Positions 7,368 to 54,925 of a DNA stretch of 54,925 nt are shown here, one piece after another. The notes under the pieces were generated by a model that was not told the origin of the DNA, did no database searches, and was given only the letters and a program-made list of their open reading frames with translations. The position numbers and the translations under genes are program-made. The DNA is taken from IMG/VR virus record IMGVR_UViG_3300034107_000498, positions 1-54,925 of that record. One strand, given 5' to 3'. Within the stretch, counting starts at the first letter, position 1. Each line of letters begins with the position of its first letter. The DNA comes from a virus.

Positions 7368-9332
7368 ATGGCATTTAGCACAAGAGCGCAAGTAATAACA
7401 CGTCGTACATATAATAGACCAACTTCAGACGACGGAAAACAATTTGAAACGTGGCAAGAAACAGTAGCCCGAGTTATTGATCACCAAGAATGGTTGTGGC
7501 AACGCGCTGCTAAGCGAGATCTAACAGATGTAGAATATTCAGAACTTTATGATCTTGAACAGCTGATGCTGGATCGTAAAGTAGCTATGAGTGGTCGTAC
7601 TCTTTGGTTAGGCGGCACTGATGTAGCTAAAACTCGTGAAGCTTCACAATTTAATTGCAGCTTTACTCATGTAGAGACTGTATATGATGTAGTAGACTGC
7701 TTATGGCTTTTACTGCAAGGATGCGGAGTAGGATTTAAACCAATTGTTGGTACTTTAAATGGTTTTTCAAAGCCGATTAAAAATATCCGTGTAGTACGTA
7801 GTACTCGCACAGCCAAAGGTGGAAATGAGCACAATACTGAAACATTTGATCAAGAAACTAAAACGTGGACTATTCAAGTTGGGGATTCTGCAGAAGCCTG
7901 GGCAAAATCTATCGGTAAGCTTATTGCTGGTAAGTACGCTGCTGATAGTCTCGTACTCGACTTTAGTCAGCTACGCCCTGCTGGGGAAAGGTTAAAAGGC
8001 TATGGATGGATTTCAAGTGGAGACACTGCTATATCAACTGCATATGTGGCTATTGCAAACATCCTTAATGGGCGCGCTGATAGTTTACTTACTAGGATGG
8101 ATATTCTCGACATTGTTAATCATCTTGGCACTATTCTTAGCAGTCGCCGTAGTGCAGAAATTGCTTTGTTCGACTATGGACAACCCGAATGGGAAGAATT
8201 TGCTGTAGCTAAAAAAGACTGGTGGTTGTACAATAACTCACACCGCCAACAATCTAACAATTCACTAGTATTTAAAGAAAAACCGCTAAAAGCTGACTTG
8301 CAAAAGATTTTTGATCTAATGCTAGAAGCAGGCGGTTCAGAACCAGGATTTATCAATGAAGTTGAAGCTCTCCGTCGCGCTCCATGGTTCAAAGGTGCAA
8401 ACCCTTGCGTGGAAATCTTACTCGGTAATAAATCATTTTGTAATCTTACCGAAACAGACATTGCTAAATTTAAAGGCGATACCGCTGGACTTCACAACGC
8501 CATCAGGCTTGCAGCTCGCGCTAACTATCGCCAAACTTGTGTAAACTTACAAGACGGGATTTTACAAGAATCTTGGCACTTAAATAACTACTTTATGCGT
8601 TTGTGCGGAGTTGGTTTAACAGGTATTGCTAAACGCCCTGATATGAATGGTTACGACTATGAGTATTTGAAGCGTACTGCAACTGGTGCTGCTATTGGCA
8701 TGGCTCAAGAACTAGATTTACCTAGTCCCAAGAATATTACTTGTGTTAAGCCTAGTGGAACATTGTCCAAGATTATGGATACCACAGAAGGAATTCACAA
8801 GCCTCTAGGAAAGTATATTTTTAATAATGTTCAATTTAGTAAATTTGACCCTATTGTTGAAGTACTGCGCGATGCTAATTATAACGTTGTTAATCACCCC
8901 ACTGATGATAGCGGTGTACTTATTACATTCCCTGTTGAGTGGATTGATGTTCCTTTCCATAAAGTTAATGGAAAAGAAGTCAACCTTGACACAGCAATCG
9001 AACAACTCGAAAAGTATAAGTTAATCCAAACTTCATGGACTCAGCAAAACACCTCAGTAACAATTAGCTATGATCCTAGTGAAGTCCCTGCAATTATTGA
9101 CTGGTTATTAGATAACTGGGATTGTTATGTAGGTGTTTCATTCATCTATCGTACTGATCCTACTAAAACAGCTAAAGATCTCGGATACTTATACTTACCA
9201 CAAGAAGTTGTGGATGAGCAAACATTCCGTAATTATGTTCAACAATTAAGCCCAGTAAGCCTAGAAAATGCCAATAGTTTTGATGAAATTATGGGCGAAG
9301 AATGTTCAACGGGAAGTTGTCCTATCCGATAA
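7368..9332 (+). CDS. Class II (adenosylcobalamin-dependent) ribonucleoside-triphosphate reductase
   Basis: A 654-residue protein resembling the monomeric RtpR/NrdJ type. The redox pair corresponds to C97 (FNCS) and C358 (SFCNLTE). The finger-loop cysteine is C347 in NPCVEI, with E349 nearby. The C-terminal shuttle cysteines are C646 and C651 in the ECSTGSCPIR tail. These match the catalytic arrangement of the Lactobacillus leichmannii enzyme, though this protein is shorter than that roughly 740-residue homologue. It makes deoxyribonucleotides and needs coenzyme B12 from the host. AAGGAAA precedes the ATG. A homing endonuclease gene follows. Confidence 0.93.
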   Translation: MAFSTRAQVITRRTYNRPTSDDGKQFETWQETVARVIDHQEWLWQRAAKRDLTDVEYSELYDLEQLMLDRKVAMSGRTLWLGGTDVAKTREASQFNCSFTHVETVYDVVDCLWLLLQGCGVGFKPIVGTLNGFSKPIKNIRVVRSTRTAKGGNEHNTETFDQETKTWTIQVGDSAEAWAKSIGKLIAGKYAADSLVLDFSQLRPAGERLKGYGWISSGDTAISTAYVAIANILNGRADSLLTRMDILDIVNHLGTILSSRRSAEIALFDYGQPEWEEFAVAKKDWWLYNNSHRQQSNNSLVFKEKPLKADLQKIFDLMLEAGGSEPGFINEVEALRRAPWFKGANPCVEILLGNKSFCNLTETDIAKFKGDTAGLHNAIRLAARANYRQTCVNLQDGILQESWHLNNYFMRLCGVGLTGIAKRPDMNGYDYEYLKRTATGAAIGMAQELDLPSPKNITCVKPSGTLSKIMDTTEGIHKPLGKYIFNNVQFSKFDPIVEVLRDANYNVVNHPTDDSGVLITFPVEWIDVPFHKVNGKEVNLDTAIEQLEKYKLIQTSWTQQNTSVTISYDPSEVPAIIDWLLDNWDCYVGVSFIYRTDPTKTAKDLGYLYLPQEVVDEQTFRNYVQQLSPVSLENANSFDEIMGEECSTGSCPIR

Positions 9333-17156: not shown

Positions 17157-17771
17157 TTAGGCTCCTAGTACATGCTTGGCATGTTCATAGTGTTTTTTAC
17201 GATCTTCTAATCCAATAGTACCGCCATTGATGCGTTTGGTAAGTGTTAAGATATCATCTTTATCCGCCCACTGATTTAAGTTGTTAGTTTCCCAGAACCA
17301 GCAAGCTGATTGGGCTGCACCTTCAAAAGTTTCCATATATTGAGAAGCTTCTTCAGGCGATAAGTTTATTGAGGCAGCAAACCAAAAGTAGTTATCTTTG
17401 CCAGTTAATTGAATTAATCCGCGACCGCTGTAACGATAGCCATCGCCTGTTTCAGGTCCGCCATTACCCATCCTATTAGCATAGACTAGATTGGCAATTT
17501 TTTCTGGCTTGTTTGCATACTGTTGAGCCATCTCGTCTGTGGGAAAATATTTAGGAAAAATCTTCCTAAGTGTAACTGCACGATAATTTAAGTTTTCTTT
17601 GATTGCACGAAAACCACCTGACTCATGCGCACATTGCGCTAAAAATGCTGCCATGCGCTGTGGAGTATTAATTTCGTATTCTGGTAGTAGCTGTACTAAT
17701 GCTTTGTGCCAGTACTCTATGTATGGATTTTTCTCAACAATTTGTTTTAGTTGCTGTAATGTTAATTCCAT
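17157..17771 (-). CDS. Endolysin, GH19 chitinase-type muramidase
   Basis: A 204-residue single-domain glycoside hydrolase family 19 enzyme. The catalytic Glu is E50 in CAHESGGF, with a second acidic residue in KENLNY (E59). Substrate-binding blocks YANRMGNGGPETGDGYRYSGRG (98-117) and IQLTGKDNY (120-128) are intact. GH19 endolysins cut the glycan chains of peptidoglycan. No signal peptide or wall-binding domain is present, so it needs a holin to cross the inner membrane, as expected in Gram-negative hosts. Its start shares one base with the o-spanin stop. Confidence 0.93.
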   Translation of the reverse strand: MELTLQQLKQIVEKNPYIEYWHKALVQLLPEYEINTPQRMAAFLAQCAHESGGFRAIKENLNYRAVTLRKIFPKYFPTDEMAQQYANKPEKIANLVYANRMGNGGPETGDGYRYSGRGLIQLTGKDNYFWFAASINLSPEEASQYMETFEGAAQSACWFWETNNLNQWADKDDILTLTKRINGGTIGLEDRKKHYEHAKHVLGA

Positions 17772-18034
17772 TATTTAACGCTTTCATAAATGGTTTTTTG
17801 TTCACGATACCAGCGCTGCCAAGCTTCTAATTTAACAGCACACATATAGTATTCAGTATAATTAACCGTTACAATTTTTGCAACATCTGACAATTTGGCT
17901 TCTTCTTGCAATTTTTGTAAGTTAGGGCATGGCTCTTGCACTAGTGTACCTGGAGCTTGTGGAAACTTTGCAGTAACTGGAACGGTTGTGCAAGCACTTA
18001 GTAGTAAAATTATTGATATTAATAAAAACTTCAT
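17771..18034 (-). CDS. Outer-membrane lipoprotein, o-spanin (Rz1-like)
   Basis: An 87-residue protein with a lipoprotein signal peptide ending in the lipobox LLSAC (C15), so the mature protein would be lipidated and held in the outer membrane. The mature part is short, Pro-containing at first (TVPVTAKFPQAPGT), then helical. It follows the inner-membrane spanin candidate with a 4-nt overlap and precedes the endolysin. Together the pair would fuse inner and outer membranes in the last step of lysis. The presence of spanins indicates a Gram-negative host. Confidence 0.82.
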   Translation of the reverse strand: MKFLLISIILLLSACTTVPVTAKFPQAPGTLVQEPCPNLQKLQEEAKLSDVAKIVTVNYTEYYMCAVKLEAWQRWYREQKTIYESVK

Positions 18035-18450
18035 TTCTTTGGTGCCTCTGCTGCACGATTATGTGTGAGTACAAATTCTTTGGGAATCACACAGTTAGCA
18101 TCAAACTTAACAACTTCACGGTCTACATACTTGATGATATCTTGACCGCGTTGCTTTATAACTTGAGTTTTAACAACAGTTTTTTCCACAATATCAGTAT
18201 TGAGATTAGCAGACTTAGCGGCCGCTTCCGCAACTTTAACTTCTAAGTCTTTGACCTTAGCTAACCAAGCGTCATTGTTGCTAATAGCACCTATCATGTA
18301 GATGCTAACAGCAACCGCTGCTATGCTTGCTGCTTGAATCAACTGTGCATTGGGTAGTAATTTAATAAACTTAGTAGCTATAAATGCTGCTATGCCTGCA
18401 AATAGTGCTAAGTAAAATATCCAGTTTGGTAAAAATTGTAAAATCCACAT
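18031..18450 (-). CDS. Inner-membrane spanin (Rz-like)
   Basis: A 139-residue protein. Residues 8-30 and 36-58 are hydrophobic, so it has two membrane helices, one more than the classical single-helix i-spanin. Residues 65-110 form a periplasmic helical region (KVKDLEVKVAEAAAKSAN), and the C-terminal part has the block YVDREVVKF and CVIPKEFVLTHNRAAE found in spanin-like proteins of aquatic phages. It lies upstream of the lipoprotein o-spanin with overlapping stop/start. Function inferred from architecture and position. Confidence 0.75.
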   Translation of the reverse strand: MWILQFLPNWIFYLALFAGIAAFIATKFIKLLPNAQLIQAASIAAVAVSIYMIGAISNNDAWLAKVKDLEVKVAEAAAKSANLNTDIVEKTVVKTQVIKQRGQDIIKYVDREVVKFDANCVIPKEFVLTHNRAAEAPKK

Positions 18451-18545
18451 TATTTAAGCCCTCCGTAATGATACCAGTAATCTACCCATTGCTGCTCATA
18501 CTTCAGGAAATAATTCTTTATGTATGTAATCGTGGACTTGATCAT
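18450..18545 (-). CDS. Possible 31-residue protein bridging pcyX-like gene and i-spanin
   Basis: An ORF that starts inside the 3' end of the bilin reductase gene (50 nt overlap) and ends with a TAATG shared with the i-spanin start. It encodes a Tyr/Trp-rich peptide (first half KSTITYIKNYF, second half WVDYWYHYGGLK). AGGA lies 7 nt before the ATG. It may be a real microprotein, or serve only as a coupling leader for the spanin. Evidence is the exact coupling; no homologue is known to me. Confidence 0.4.
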   Translation of the reverse strand: MIKSTITYIKNYFLKYEQQWVDYWYHYGGLK

Positions 18546-19182
18546 CGTTAAATCCTAGTGTTTTCAATACTCTGGGAGTATGTGGGTTACATTTTTGTTG
18601 CTGACAGTAATAATTTTGTTTTTCTGTAAAATTATTCTGTGTTACCATATCCTCATATTTTAATGCTGGGCGATATTTTGATATGTTATCTAAGTAGTAA
18701 ATTAACGACTTCTTGGATATTTCTAATATTATACTCATTTCAAAATCAGTATTAATATTTCCAGCAGCAACCATGCGGTTTGAAAATATATTACGTGCCC
18801 ATTCAGGCAGTTCTCGTGGCTTTGCCCACGAGGTAGGTTCTACAAACTCTTGAAACCATTTGCACATTGGGTGCTCAGGGTCGCCTGTAGGTGAAAAATC
18901 TAAAAACGCTCCTGTGATCTTATTTGTTCCTGCTACAATGTCAAAGCCGTAAATTGGGGCTGCATCGTAAACGTGCGGGAATATACACAAGTGCATCATA
19001 TAAAGTTTTTTGGATTCTGACACGTCAATAACATCTAAGTTACCACGTCGGATCCAAGCACTAGAAAAATTCTTAGTGTACCAACCAGAATCGTATTCTG
19101 TTGGCAAAGGAAAAGCTCGTGCTGCAAGAATTGTTTCCAATTCTTGTGCATGAGCTTTTAGTTTACTGAATATTGTACTCAT
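18496..19182 (-). CDS. pcyX: Ferredoxin-dependent bilin reductase, PcyX-like
   Basis: A 228-residue single-domain enzyme. Family motifs are clear: HLCIFP (64-69), PIYGFDIVAG (76-85), GAFLDFSPTG (91-100), PRELPEWARNIFS (122-134) and YYCQQQ (191-196). H64 and D81 are spaced 17 apart and match the catalytic His88 and Asp105 of PcyA. The Glu of the PcyA triad appears replaced by Asp (D53), as described for phage PcyX, and N199 stands where PcyA and PebS have a second Asp. PcyX reduces biliverdin by four electrons to phycoerythrobilin. The exact product here is inferred. It overlaps the heme oxygenase gene by 20 nt and needs host ferredoxin. Confidence 0.9.
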   Translation of the reverse strand: MSTIFSKLKAHAQELETILAARAFPLPTEYDSGWYTKNFSSAWIRRGNLDVIDVSESKKLYMMHLCIFPHVYDAAPIYGFDIVAGTNKITGAFLDFSPTGDPEHPMCKWFQEFVEPTSWAKPRELPEWARNIFSNRMVAAGNINTDFEMSIILEISKKSLIYYLDNISKYRPALKYEDMVTQNNFTEKQNYYCQQQKCNPHTPRVLKTLGFNDDQVHDYIHKELFPEV

Positions 19183-19702
19183 TGGCTAACTCTGTAAATA
19201 GTTCAATAGCAAAAGCAAAACATTCGTTGGCTTCTGCAGCCATTGATATATCTAATTTTTCACGAAGTGCGGTAATTAACTCGCTGCGATTTTCAAAATC
19301 ATACATTGTAGTAGTGCCAGGAACAACACGTTTAATCATCTGACCGCCGTAAAGGTCACCCATATGACGAACATATAAGTGCGCTAGTAATTGACTATCA
19401 GTTAAATTTCGTGTGGTTATATATTGAATATATTTTTGGGTACTAGTATACGTTGTTGTTTTGCACTTTGGTAAATTTTCAAAGTCTGCTAATATTTTTT
19501 TGTTACGCTCTATTCCAGTCAAGCCACTTAAAAGGCCTCGGCTGTTAGCCACGGCCTCAAGTGTTTGATAAATTGCGTGTTGATTAAACAAAAAGTCAGC
19601 ATAAATATTTTCAGAAATATTACCGCTTAACAATAGTTTTGTAAAAGATTGTTGTTCAGCTAACACATGGTTTTCATGTGTTAGTGTTTTTAGTGTTGTC
19701 AT
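19163..19702 (-). CDS. ho1: Heme oxygenase (biliverdin-forming)
   Basis: A 179-residue all-helical protein. The proximal heme ligand is H12 (THENHVLAEQ aligned to the canonical ATKEVHTQAE), and the distal helix carries GDLYGGQ (115-121), matching the conserved GDLSGGQ of heme oxygenases. It is shorter than the approximately 230-240 residues of cyanobacterial HO1, as other phage versions are. It should open heme to biliverdin IX-alpha, CO and Fe(II), using reductant from host ferredoxin. Its start shares a base with the previous tail-chaperone stop and has no clear ribosome site, so translation depends on coupling. Its product is the substrate of the adjacent bilin reductase. Confidence 0.93.
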   Translation of the reverse strand: MTTLKTLTHENHVLAEQQSFTKLLLSGNISENIYADFLFNQHAIYQTLEAVANSRGLLSGLTGIERNKKILADFENLPKCKTTTYTSTQKYIQYITTRNLTDSQLLAHLYVRHMGDLYGGQMIKRVVPGTTTMYDFENRSELITALREKLDISMAAEANECFAFAIELFTELANEYNIQ

Positions 19703-20067
19703 TAGGTTGGTGCTTGTGGTACTACAATTTCTGCAATAGTTGTAGCTGCTGCAAAAGTTTGTGGCATATCACGTAATTGTTGACGATAAGTTGCCCACTC
19801 AGCTTTTTTAGCTGCAGTTAGTGGGCTGTCCGCTACCTGAGTCCAATCAGATTCTTGTAATAGATGTGCTCGTAAACTACGAATACCCATATCAAGTTGA
19901 GCTTTAGTAATTTCTGGCTCCGCTGGAACAGGAATGTGCTCAATCCAGCCGAGTTCAGTTAAACCAACAGTGTCTGTTAAACCTGTTCTGGCTAAAACTT
20001 GACGATAAGGAACTAAGCTTTCTATTACTACGCCATTTACTACATAGTTAAATAATACATTATCCAT
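19702..20067 (-). CDS. Tail fibre assembly chaperone-like protein
   Basis: A 121-residue protein. The second half carries the common phage tail chaperone signature (LLQESDWTQVADSPLTAAKK, then EWATYRQQLRDMP). The first half is beta-rich and includes YVVNGVVIESLVPYRQVL. Such proteins help fold and trimerise the adjacent fibre. Its start overlaps the stop of the glycine-rich fibre as TAATG, which pairs them. It is the last tail gene before the bilin genes. Confidence 0.8.
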   Translation of the reverse strand: MDNVLFNYVVNGVVIESLVPYRQVLARTGLTDTVGLTELGWIEHIPVPAEPEITKAQLDMGIRSLRAHLLQESDWTQVADSPLTAAKKAEWATYRQQLRDMPQTFAAATTIAEIVVPQAPT

Positions 20068-53284: not shown

Positions 53285-54925
53285 TCAGGTTGCTGTGTAC
53301 TTGTGTGCTGTAACAGCGTTACCTAAGTTAGTGGTAACACGTGTCATACCGGTACGGAGGCTAGCCACCATAACGCGACGCTGTGTTTCAACTAATTCTT
53401 GGGTATCAATGCGGAGACCGCGCTGGTTACCAACGATAAAGTTGCCTGGGTTAACAGCAATAGCTCCTGCAACACCAGTACCTGGGGAAGCGAACTCTGC
53501 AGAAACCAACACGGGGCTTCCACCGATTTGACCGATTTGACCGGTTAACAGTGTAGCTTGTGAGCCAACTTGATTCATTGTTTGGAAGGTTGTGTCTTCC
53601 AGCAATTGGTAATATGTATCAGTATTAATGATATAAATTACTTCAGCTGGGTCGAGACCCCAAGCACCCAAACCTTGACGCAATGTGCGCAATTTAGCAA
53701 CGTTCATACCAGCAACAACAGTGTTACCAGTGGCAGTTGTGTTAGAAGCCCAGATTGACAATCCTTTAACAGGATCAGAACCGGAACCAGCACCTAACAA
53801 GAAAGCCTTGTCAACGGCGCGAGCAACACGACGAACCATACCATCACGGATGATTGGCATCAAAGCCAACAAAGAATCTTCTTCTTCTTCGTATGCTGTA
53901 TACTCGTTTGTGGCAAGTTTATAAGCATTCAAAGTGATTTCTTTGAGAGCGTGAGTAGCAGTTGCACCAGCGGAACCACCAGCTGCACCAAGGGTAGCAG
54001 GAACGGCGCCAAACTCAGCGTTAGTAACCCAAGTAGCAGTACCTGCTTCTGGATTCACTGGGATTGTCATCACGTTGGTTTGCATAGCGATGTTGCGGAA
54101 AATAGGAGCAACAACTAAGCGACGACGAACTTCAGACTCAAGGTTCAAAGAAACTTCTTGTTCCCATGTAGCTGAAGGCACGTGAGCACCGTATTTTTGC
54201 ACTAAATCGCGGCCAAGACGTGTACCGTCGATTGACTTGCCAGCCATTTTAGCTAAGAAAACTGCCTTTTCTTTGTCACCATAAGACATACCGTCTTTGG
54301 CTTCTTGGAAAGACATTTTTGATTTTGTGATTGCTTCGATTTCTGAAGCTTTTTCTTTCAAAGAAGCCTCTAAACCAGCGATAACTGATTTGCTTGACTC
54401 TTCAGCAGTAGCTAAACGCTTCTCAACTTCGGCCATCAAGCGCTCAGCACCTGTGTCACCAGTAGAGATAGAAGCAACAGCGGCTTTAACGCGTGCATCT
54501 AATTCGGCTTCTGATTTGTCAGCAGCGGCTTTTTCGGCCAATGCTTTTGCCTGTGTATCGGCGATGGCTTTAGCAGTGAGCTCAGCCGCTTTGTTAGCTG
54601 CATCAGCCAACATTTGTTCTAATTGTTTAGGATCCATTTCCCATTCCTTTTTAATTTCGCCGATTGCTTCCGTTGAGGATTCTAGCCCTTTAGCTGAATC
54701 GCTGTCGGGTGCAAACTGCATTTTGAAAGATTTAAATTCTTCGGCTGTATCAAACGCCTTAGAAAGACTAAATAGTGTATTTTGATTAGCTGGTACTGAC
54801 ACTACTGAAATTTCGTGCAGTTCTAGCTCTTTTACCACAAACAACTCTTTGGCTGCATCATATTCCGCATCTACGATTCGGAAGCCGATACTAAATGCCG
54901 TTAAGATGCCATCTTTTACAAGATT
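53285..54925 (-). CDS. Prohead protease - scaffold - major capsid protein fusion, 5' end cut by window
   Basis: 546 residues are visible before the edge. The first 60 are the end of an HK97-type prohead protease: TAFSIGFRIVD, then LELHEISVVSVPANQNTLF. Residues 60-250 are helical, Ala/Lys/Glu-rich (KQLEQMLADAANKAAEL, AEVEKRLATAEESSK), typical of the delta scaffold domain. From about 250 the HK97-fold major capsid protein follows (ATWEQEVSLNLESEVRRRLVV ... RRVMVASLRTGMTR). The parts are usually separate or two genes, so the polyprotein is unusual. An internal ATG at 54637 has its own ribosome site. The protease active site lies outside the window. Confidence 0.9.
   Translation of the reverse strand, partial: NLVKDGILTAFSIGFRIVDAEYDAAKELFVVKELELHEISVVSVPANQNTLFSLSKAFDTAEEFKSFKMQFAPDSDSAKGLESSTEAIGEIKKEWEMDPKQLEQMLADAANKAAELTAKAIADTQAKALAEKAAADKSEAELDARVKAAVASISTGDTGAERLMAEVEKRLATAEESSKSVIAGLEASLKEKASEIEAITKSKMSFQEAKDGMSYGDKEKAVFLAKMAGKSIDGTRLGRDLVQKYGAHVPSATWEQEVSLNLESEVRRRLVVAPIFRNIAMQTNVMTIPVNPEAGTATWVTNAEFGAVPATLGAAGGSAGATATHALKEITLNAYKLATNEYTAYEEEEDSLLALMPIIRDGMVRRVARAVDKAFLLGAGSGSDPVKGLSIWASNTTATGNTVVAGMNVAKLRTLRQGLGAWGLDPAEVIYIINTDTYYQLLEDTTFQTMNQVGSQATLLTGQIGQIGGSPVLVSAEFASPGTGVAGAIAVNPGNFIVGNQRGLRIDTQELVETQRRVMVASLRTGMTRVTTNLGNAVTAHKYTAT

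Follow-up and report, generated by a model that had tools for sequence, protein, structure and literature searches.

The main explanation offered for bilin genes in phages is that they support light harvesting in cyanobacteria, and the locus described here raises the question of what a heme oxygenase (HO) and a ferredoxin-dependent bilin reductase (FDBR) might do for a phage with no photosystem genes in view. The stretch of DNA analyzed (the window) is a 54,925-bp IMG/VR record, a genome fragment. An initial annotation had read the gene pair as a two-gene pathway from heme to a reduced bilin, carried by a lambda-like siphovirus, in a context unknown to it from characterised phages.

The hemO-pcyX pair lies within a late operon, between a tail-fibre chaperone gene and lysis genes (Table 1). 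The chaperone stop codon and the hemO ATG share one base (TAATG), and the homologue of the protein encoded just downstream of pcyX in a relative (L001) also matches an Rz-like spanin family. Pfam scores for Heme_oxygenase and Fe_bilin_red both exceed the curated cut-offs, and the residues by which the pair had initially been recognized are all present: the proximal His and GDLYGGQ in the HO, and HLCIFP and PIYGFD in the FDBR (residues 64-69 and 76-81).

Table 1. Coordinates of the hemO-pcyX locus, its neighbours, and diagnostic residues in the window
Feature	Position	Strand	Evidence or remark
Endolysin	17157..17771	-	phrog_181, E 1.2e-75
Rz-like spanin candidate	17771..18034	-	phrog_812 and phrog_456
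pcyX downstream neighbour, possible inner spanin-type membrane protein	18031..18450	-	phrog_4952, E 1.3e-10
pcyX-type FDBR, 228 aa	18496..19182	-	PF05996, E 3.3e-19
Asp81 codon, aligned to PcyA Asp105	18940..18942	-	invariant in 226/226 aligned FDBRs
His64 codon, aligned to PcyA His88	18991..18993	-	H in 148/148 viral-contig FDBRs
Asp50 codon, aligned to PcyA Glu76	19033..19035	-	D in 148/148 viral-contig FDBRs; PDB phmmer alignment
hemO end/pcyX start overlap, 20 nt	19163..19182	-	from coordinates
hemO, heme oxygenase, 179 aa	19163..19702	-	PF01126, E 1.2e-17
GDLYGGQ, HO residues 115-121, distal-helix GDxxGGQ motif	19340..19360	-	aligns with GDLSGGQ of Synechocystis HO1
His12 codon, aligned with proximal heme-iron ligand of known HOs	19667..19669	-	phmmer alignment
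Tail fibre assembly chaperone, hemO upstream neighbour	19702..20067	-	PF16778, E 2.1e-16
T5-like major head protein, phage-type marker, runs off window end	53285..54925	-	tblastn to Klebsiella, Vibrio, and Aeromonas T5-like phages

Homology, structure, residue conservation, and phylogeny agree on the first gene. Specifically, i) a phmmer search of the PDB matches the protein to Synechocystis HO1 and Leptospira HO (E 1.7e-9); ii) its AlphaFold (AF2) model has an all-helical HO fold (pLDDT 96.6), and among the Foldseek matches listed, the PDB entries are all heme oxygenases; iii) H12, D116, G119, and G120 are invariant, and G115 and Q121 nearly invariant, in 34 aligned HOs; and iv) in a tree where three references are fragments taken from the phmmer PDB alignments, the window HO joins PcyX-linked phage HOs and that of the pelagiphage Mosig, apart from the Synechocystis, Leptospira, and cyanophage HOs (support 100/100). 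With the proximal His, GDxxGGQ motif, and fold characteristic of the HO-1 superfamily, the protein is by sequence a heme oxygenase, and heme cleavage is its predicted activity.

For the reductase, PcyX, PcyA, and PebS had to be weighed as identities. The best solved match in the PDB phmmer search is a phage PcyX (5owg, E 2.8e-51), with PcyA second at about 1e-10; the AF2 model (pLDDT 90.3) has the alpha/beta/alpha FDBR fold, and its top Foldseek match in the PDB is again 5owg (E 1.5e-12, TM 0.85 by target length). In a 52-row tree with long deep branches and an uncertain root, from which alphaproteobacterial PcyA, the CB_2 phage enzyme, and pre-PcyA were left out, a 38-row clade (support 99/97) unites the window FDBR with 5owg, Mosig, and 35 viral contigs; PebS and the PcyA sequences of cyanobacteria and cyanophages fall outside it. 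Asp50, which by alignment offset is PcyX Asp55 in the naming of PMC11480375, occupies the Glu76 position of PcyA; all 148 viral-contig FDBRs have D there and PcyA sequences have E. Asp50 in place of Glu76, together with the tree, rules out PcyA; a separate tree position and only 19% identity rule out PebS; and judged by its alignments and phylogeny the window FDBR is a PcyX. The trees proposed in the initial annotation thus group both proteins with phage homologs, the HO with phage HOs and the FDBR with PcyX.

The same residue bears on the product. Rockwell et al. describe Glu76 as PcyA-specific, required for 18-vinyl reduction, and missing from PcyX (PMC10151467), and the activity by which the CB_2 enzyme makes phycocyanobilin (PCB) has been attributed to its lack of the PcyX Asp55 (PMC11480375); with Asp at the Glu76 position, we therefore predict phycoerythrobilin (PEB) and not PCB. 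PCB or phytochromobilin as the actual product is unlikely: the characterised PcyX is distant in sequence and the CB_2 homologue does yield PCB, but the window FDBR and every one of its 148 viral relatives have Asp in place of the PCB-specific Glu76, and the absence of the PcyX Asp55 is what has been linked to PCB activity in CB_2. Elsewhere in the FDBR data, a PcyA gene on a Nonlabens xiamenensis contig (Bacteroidota, L174) falls within the cyanophage PcyA group and is likely contamination or phage DNA, and three relatives (L046, L047, and L048) encode a 263-aa FDBR with a C-terminal extension absent from most others.

Which phage carries the cassette? The match for the window SbcC is the D12/D13-type exonuclease found in T5-like phages of Vibrio; nine records including the window have the same T5-like head protein, and the sheath family PF04984 is absent from all nine. 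The window and its closest relative, G001 (99,690 bp), are collinear, also across the cassette. G001 carries a D5-like regulator, a two-part NAD ligase, a DnaB-type helicase, portal, terminase, and seven tRNAs; its head-protein gene is split across both contig ends, as expected if the genome is circularly mapped and near-complete. Judged by the head protein, D12/D13-like SbcCD, and absence of a sheath, with the D5-like regulator and split ligase read in G001, the carrier is a T5-like siphovirus. The initial reading of a lambda-like siphovirus was therefore right as to siphovirus; lambda-like fits some tail proteins (J and tape measure), but the head and replication genes are T5-like, and a lambda-like phage is ruled out.

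Homologs in other phages give discordant signals as to host: the nearest tail homologue is from a Curvibacter phage, and the matches overall (Curvibacter, Stenotrophomonas, Rhizobium, and a roseophage) are distant and mutually inconsistent, so that no host is assigned. A T5-like relative (G005) has a tmRNA gene (L260:19473-19888, tag ANDSQFALAA) inside a tRNA cluster, which may point to the host group; used as a host probe against plasmids and the literature, it gave no match. Another relative of the window phage (G010) has 24 tRNA genes within one 20-kb stretch (L251) and one more in L250. G001 has a gene for the UV endonuclease UvdE (L248:15341-16339), to our knowledge unusual in T5-like phages. 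The window itself (7368-9332) encodes a ribonucleotide reductase whose relatives are class II, adenosylcobalamin-dependent enzymes from marine phages, which would be a second tetrapyrrole-dependent step in the same phage.

The cassette is widespread among viral contigs. Scanning IMG/VR with a single sequence gave 72 FDBR loci, and scanning it with an alignment gave at least 594 related ones; no FDBR relative was found in 84,980 bacterial and archaeal genomes by an alignment-based pattern scan using strict patterns. When 102 distinct FDBRs were fetched, HO lay directly upstream in 99 of the 101 informative loci, two had a gene-sized gap, and one locus was cut by a contig end. In most relatives hemO and pcyX overlap by 17-38 nt; in L055 and L158 they are instead separated by about 560-585 nt, space for a further gene. 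Wherever it was computable against 16 relatives, dN/dS was 0.04-0.09 for the FDBR and 0.13-0.37 for the HO; values this low mean that both genes are maintained as proteins, and both are under purifying selection. Chance as the cause of the HO and FDBR matches is excluded by the PDB phmmer searches, the AlphaFold fold matches, and dN/dS well below 1. The two genes have had different histories: the window and L001 are 96% identical in FDBR and just 64% in HO, the window and L008 about 95% in both, and across the window, L001, L003, and L008 similarity drops stepwise toward HO and the tail-fibre genes, a pattern that suggests recombination near the HO/FDBR junction.

Neighbouring genes were compared at 47 dereplicated loci. 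Within two positions upstream of HO we found 14 tail-fibre chaperones, about 20 matches to 2OG-Fe(II) oxygenases, 10-11 proteins each of the ClpS and HSP20 families, and 6 matches to ferrochelatase; downstream genes are mainly spanin-like or tail proteins. Thus phages of quite different kinds have the hemO-pcyX cassette in their late structural regions. In about ten of these loci, ClpS and Hsp20 family genes stand immediately before the pair. The frequent chaperones, oxygenases, and ferrochelatases could be taken to mean that HO provides iron for the virion, for example for iron-bound tail fibres, and that the FDBR merely disposes of biliverdin. We give this very little credence: all window tail proteins together hold a single HxH motif, leaving iron-binding tail fibres unsupported; the oxygenase family PF13640 is absent from the window and from most of the T5-like records, one of which has it; and 2OG-Fe(II) oxygenases are frequent in T4-like phages regardless.

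Neither the window nor its T5-like relatives gave a match to Photo_RC, Phycobilisome, GAF, Fer2, or Aminotran_1_2; ferrochelatase was not found in the window phage, and none of the 28 IMG/VR records searched has a 2Fe-2S ferredoxin, Mosig alone being positive. As controls, P-HM1 gave psbA and psbD and Mosig gave ferredoxin, so the searches work; gene absence is weak evidence in fragments and stronger in the near-complete G001. The initial impression that no photosystem genes are in view thus extends from the window to its T5-like relatives, one of them near-complete. With Aminotran_1_2 unmatched, no third gene of the valaS (ALA synthase) type was found in this set. In a separate record, G026 (L137), an Aminotran_1_2 gene may encode an ALA synthase.

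Could the bilin nevertheless act in a cyanobacterial host as a chromophore for light harvesting, the role argued for pebS and pcyA in cyanophages? PEB, the product of PcyX, is a pigment of phycobilisomes and was incorporated when PcyX was put into Synechococcus 7942 (PMC13197396), but psbA/psbD, phycobiliprotein, and ferredoxin are unmatched in the window and its T5-like relatives, the HO falls outside the cyanobacterial and cyanophage group, and the nearest tail homologue comes from a Curvibacter phage; we regard this role as very unlikely. Alternatively, the bilin could alter signalling in the host by feeding a photoreceptor of the phytochrome type or another protein that binds bilins. None of 29 phage records has a GAF domain, and bacteriophytochromes do not usually bind PEB as chromophore, which makes such a role distinctly unlikely. 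It is favored to some degree by the finding that the HemO-PcyA of the CB_2 phage can provide a phytochrome chromophore (PMC11480375), and by the bilin-binding globins that heterotrophs have alongside pre-PcyA (PMC10151467).

Taking together family membership, catalytic residues, gene order and overlap, and purifying selection, all of them read from the sequence, we think it probable that this T5-like siphovirus carries a working hemO-pcyX cassette that would convert heme to PEB with host electrons, for late turnover of heme and its iron; the two-gene pathway from heme to a reduced bilin in the initial annotation is supported, as a predicted function, by families and catalytic residues. Heme oxygenases convert heme, O2, and electrons to biliverdin IX-alpha, Fe(II), and CO, and FDBRs can reduce biliverdin with four electrons to PEB via 15,16-dihydrobiliverdin (15,16-DHBV). 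In the window phage, hemO and pcyX would be translated together with the late tail-fibre and lysis genes; the HO would cleave host heme; PcyX would carry out the four-electron reduction, with PEB via 15,16-DHBV as the most likely outcome; and, because no phage ferredoxin was found, the electrons must be host-derived, presumably from a suitable host ferredoxin. Removal of biliverdin by a reductase would ease HO product inhibition, and PcyX may in this way draw the HO reaction forward. As the likeliest benefit we prefer late turnover of heme and iron from the host over light harvesting, since the cassette is accompanied by neither a bilin acceptor nor a photosynthesis gene. Counting against this explanation, identity to the closest homologue from an isolate, that of Mosig, is only about 44% for the FDBR (and 38% for the HO), and no iron-using acceptor was found in the window (no PF13640 and no HxH-rich tail fibre). 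As the CB_2 enzyme demonstrates, a relative of PcyX from a virus can be a true PcyA (PMC11480375), and the product of so distant an FDBR could therefore differ.

We wish to stress that the finding is solid and its novelty modest. The cassette and enzyme class are published (PMC11480375, PMC6755814, PMC10151467), and the initial remark that the context was unknown from characterised phages does not hold for the pathway, given those reports and the hundreds of IMG/VR loci. As far as our literature search reached, it does hold for the siphovirus carrier: the search, with most subscription journals outside its coverage, found no publication on hemO-pcyX in a siphovirus, T5-like or otherwise; among the 153 cyanophages of one review, HO, PcyA, and PebS occur only in myoviruses and one podovirus (PMC10452541); and all contigs reported in the Shemin-pathway paper cluster with myovirus pelagiphages. 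New here are i) the T5-like carrier, with a near-complete 99.7-kb relative; ii) the at least 594 related FDBR loci in IMG/VR and the adjacency of HO in 99/101 informative distinct loci; and iii) T5-like members without detectable photosystem, phycobiliprotein, GAF, 2Fe-2S ferredoxin, or ALA-synthase genes. Carriage by T5-like phages without those genes, and conservation across hundreds of viral contigs, make the light-harvesting explanation insufficient. The chances seem to us evenly balanced that the T5-like lineage uses the cassette in non-phototrophic bacteria, with host electrons and for a purpose other than light harvesting, be it the turnover of heme and iron or signalling by a bilin; if so, PEB would have a role in phage infection of heterotrophs. 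With two overlapping genes, hemO-pcyX is a compact test case for why phages dismantle heme.

The window cassette can be compared with several known systems. The cyanophage genes ho1, pcyA, and pebS (P-SSM4, P-SSM2, and P-HM1) likewise represent phage-borne HO and FDBR families, but PcyA of cyanophages has Glu76 and clusters with the cyanobacterial enzyme, PebS branches far outside, HO of cyanophages clusters with that of Synechocystis, and P-HM1 has psbA and psbD close to its HO. The CB_2 phage from a peat bog (hemO-pcyA/X-valaS, PMC11480375) is similar in combining HO with a PcyA/X-type FDBR in a non-marine setting with no expected photosynthesis role, but it has an ALA synthase, whereas the T5-like set lacks an Aminotran_1_2 gene, and its FDBR makes PCB and is without the PcyX Asp55. 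The pelagiphage Mosig EXVC030M (MT647606), a myovirus with a tail sheath, encodes ferredoxin, ferrochelatase, and several 2OG-Fe(II) oxygenases, none of which was found in the T5-like window phage, but Mosig and the metagenomic oceanic phages that yielded the 5owg PcyX match the window in the two genes, their order, and their overlapping ends, and share its FDBR clade and the Asp at the Glu76 position; in Mosig, as in the window, the cassette lies near tail-fibre genes.
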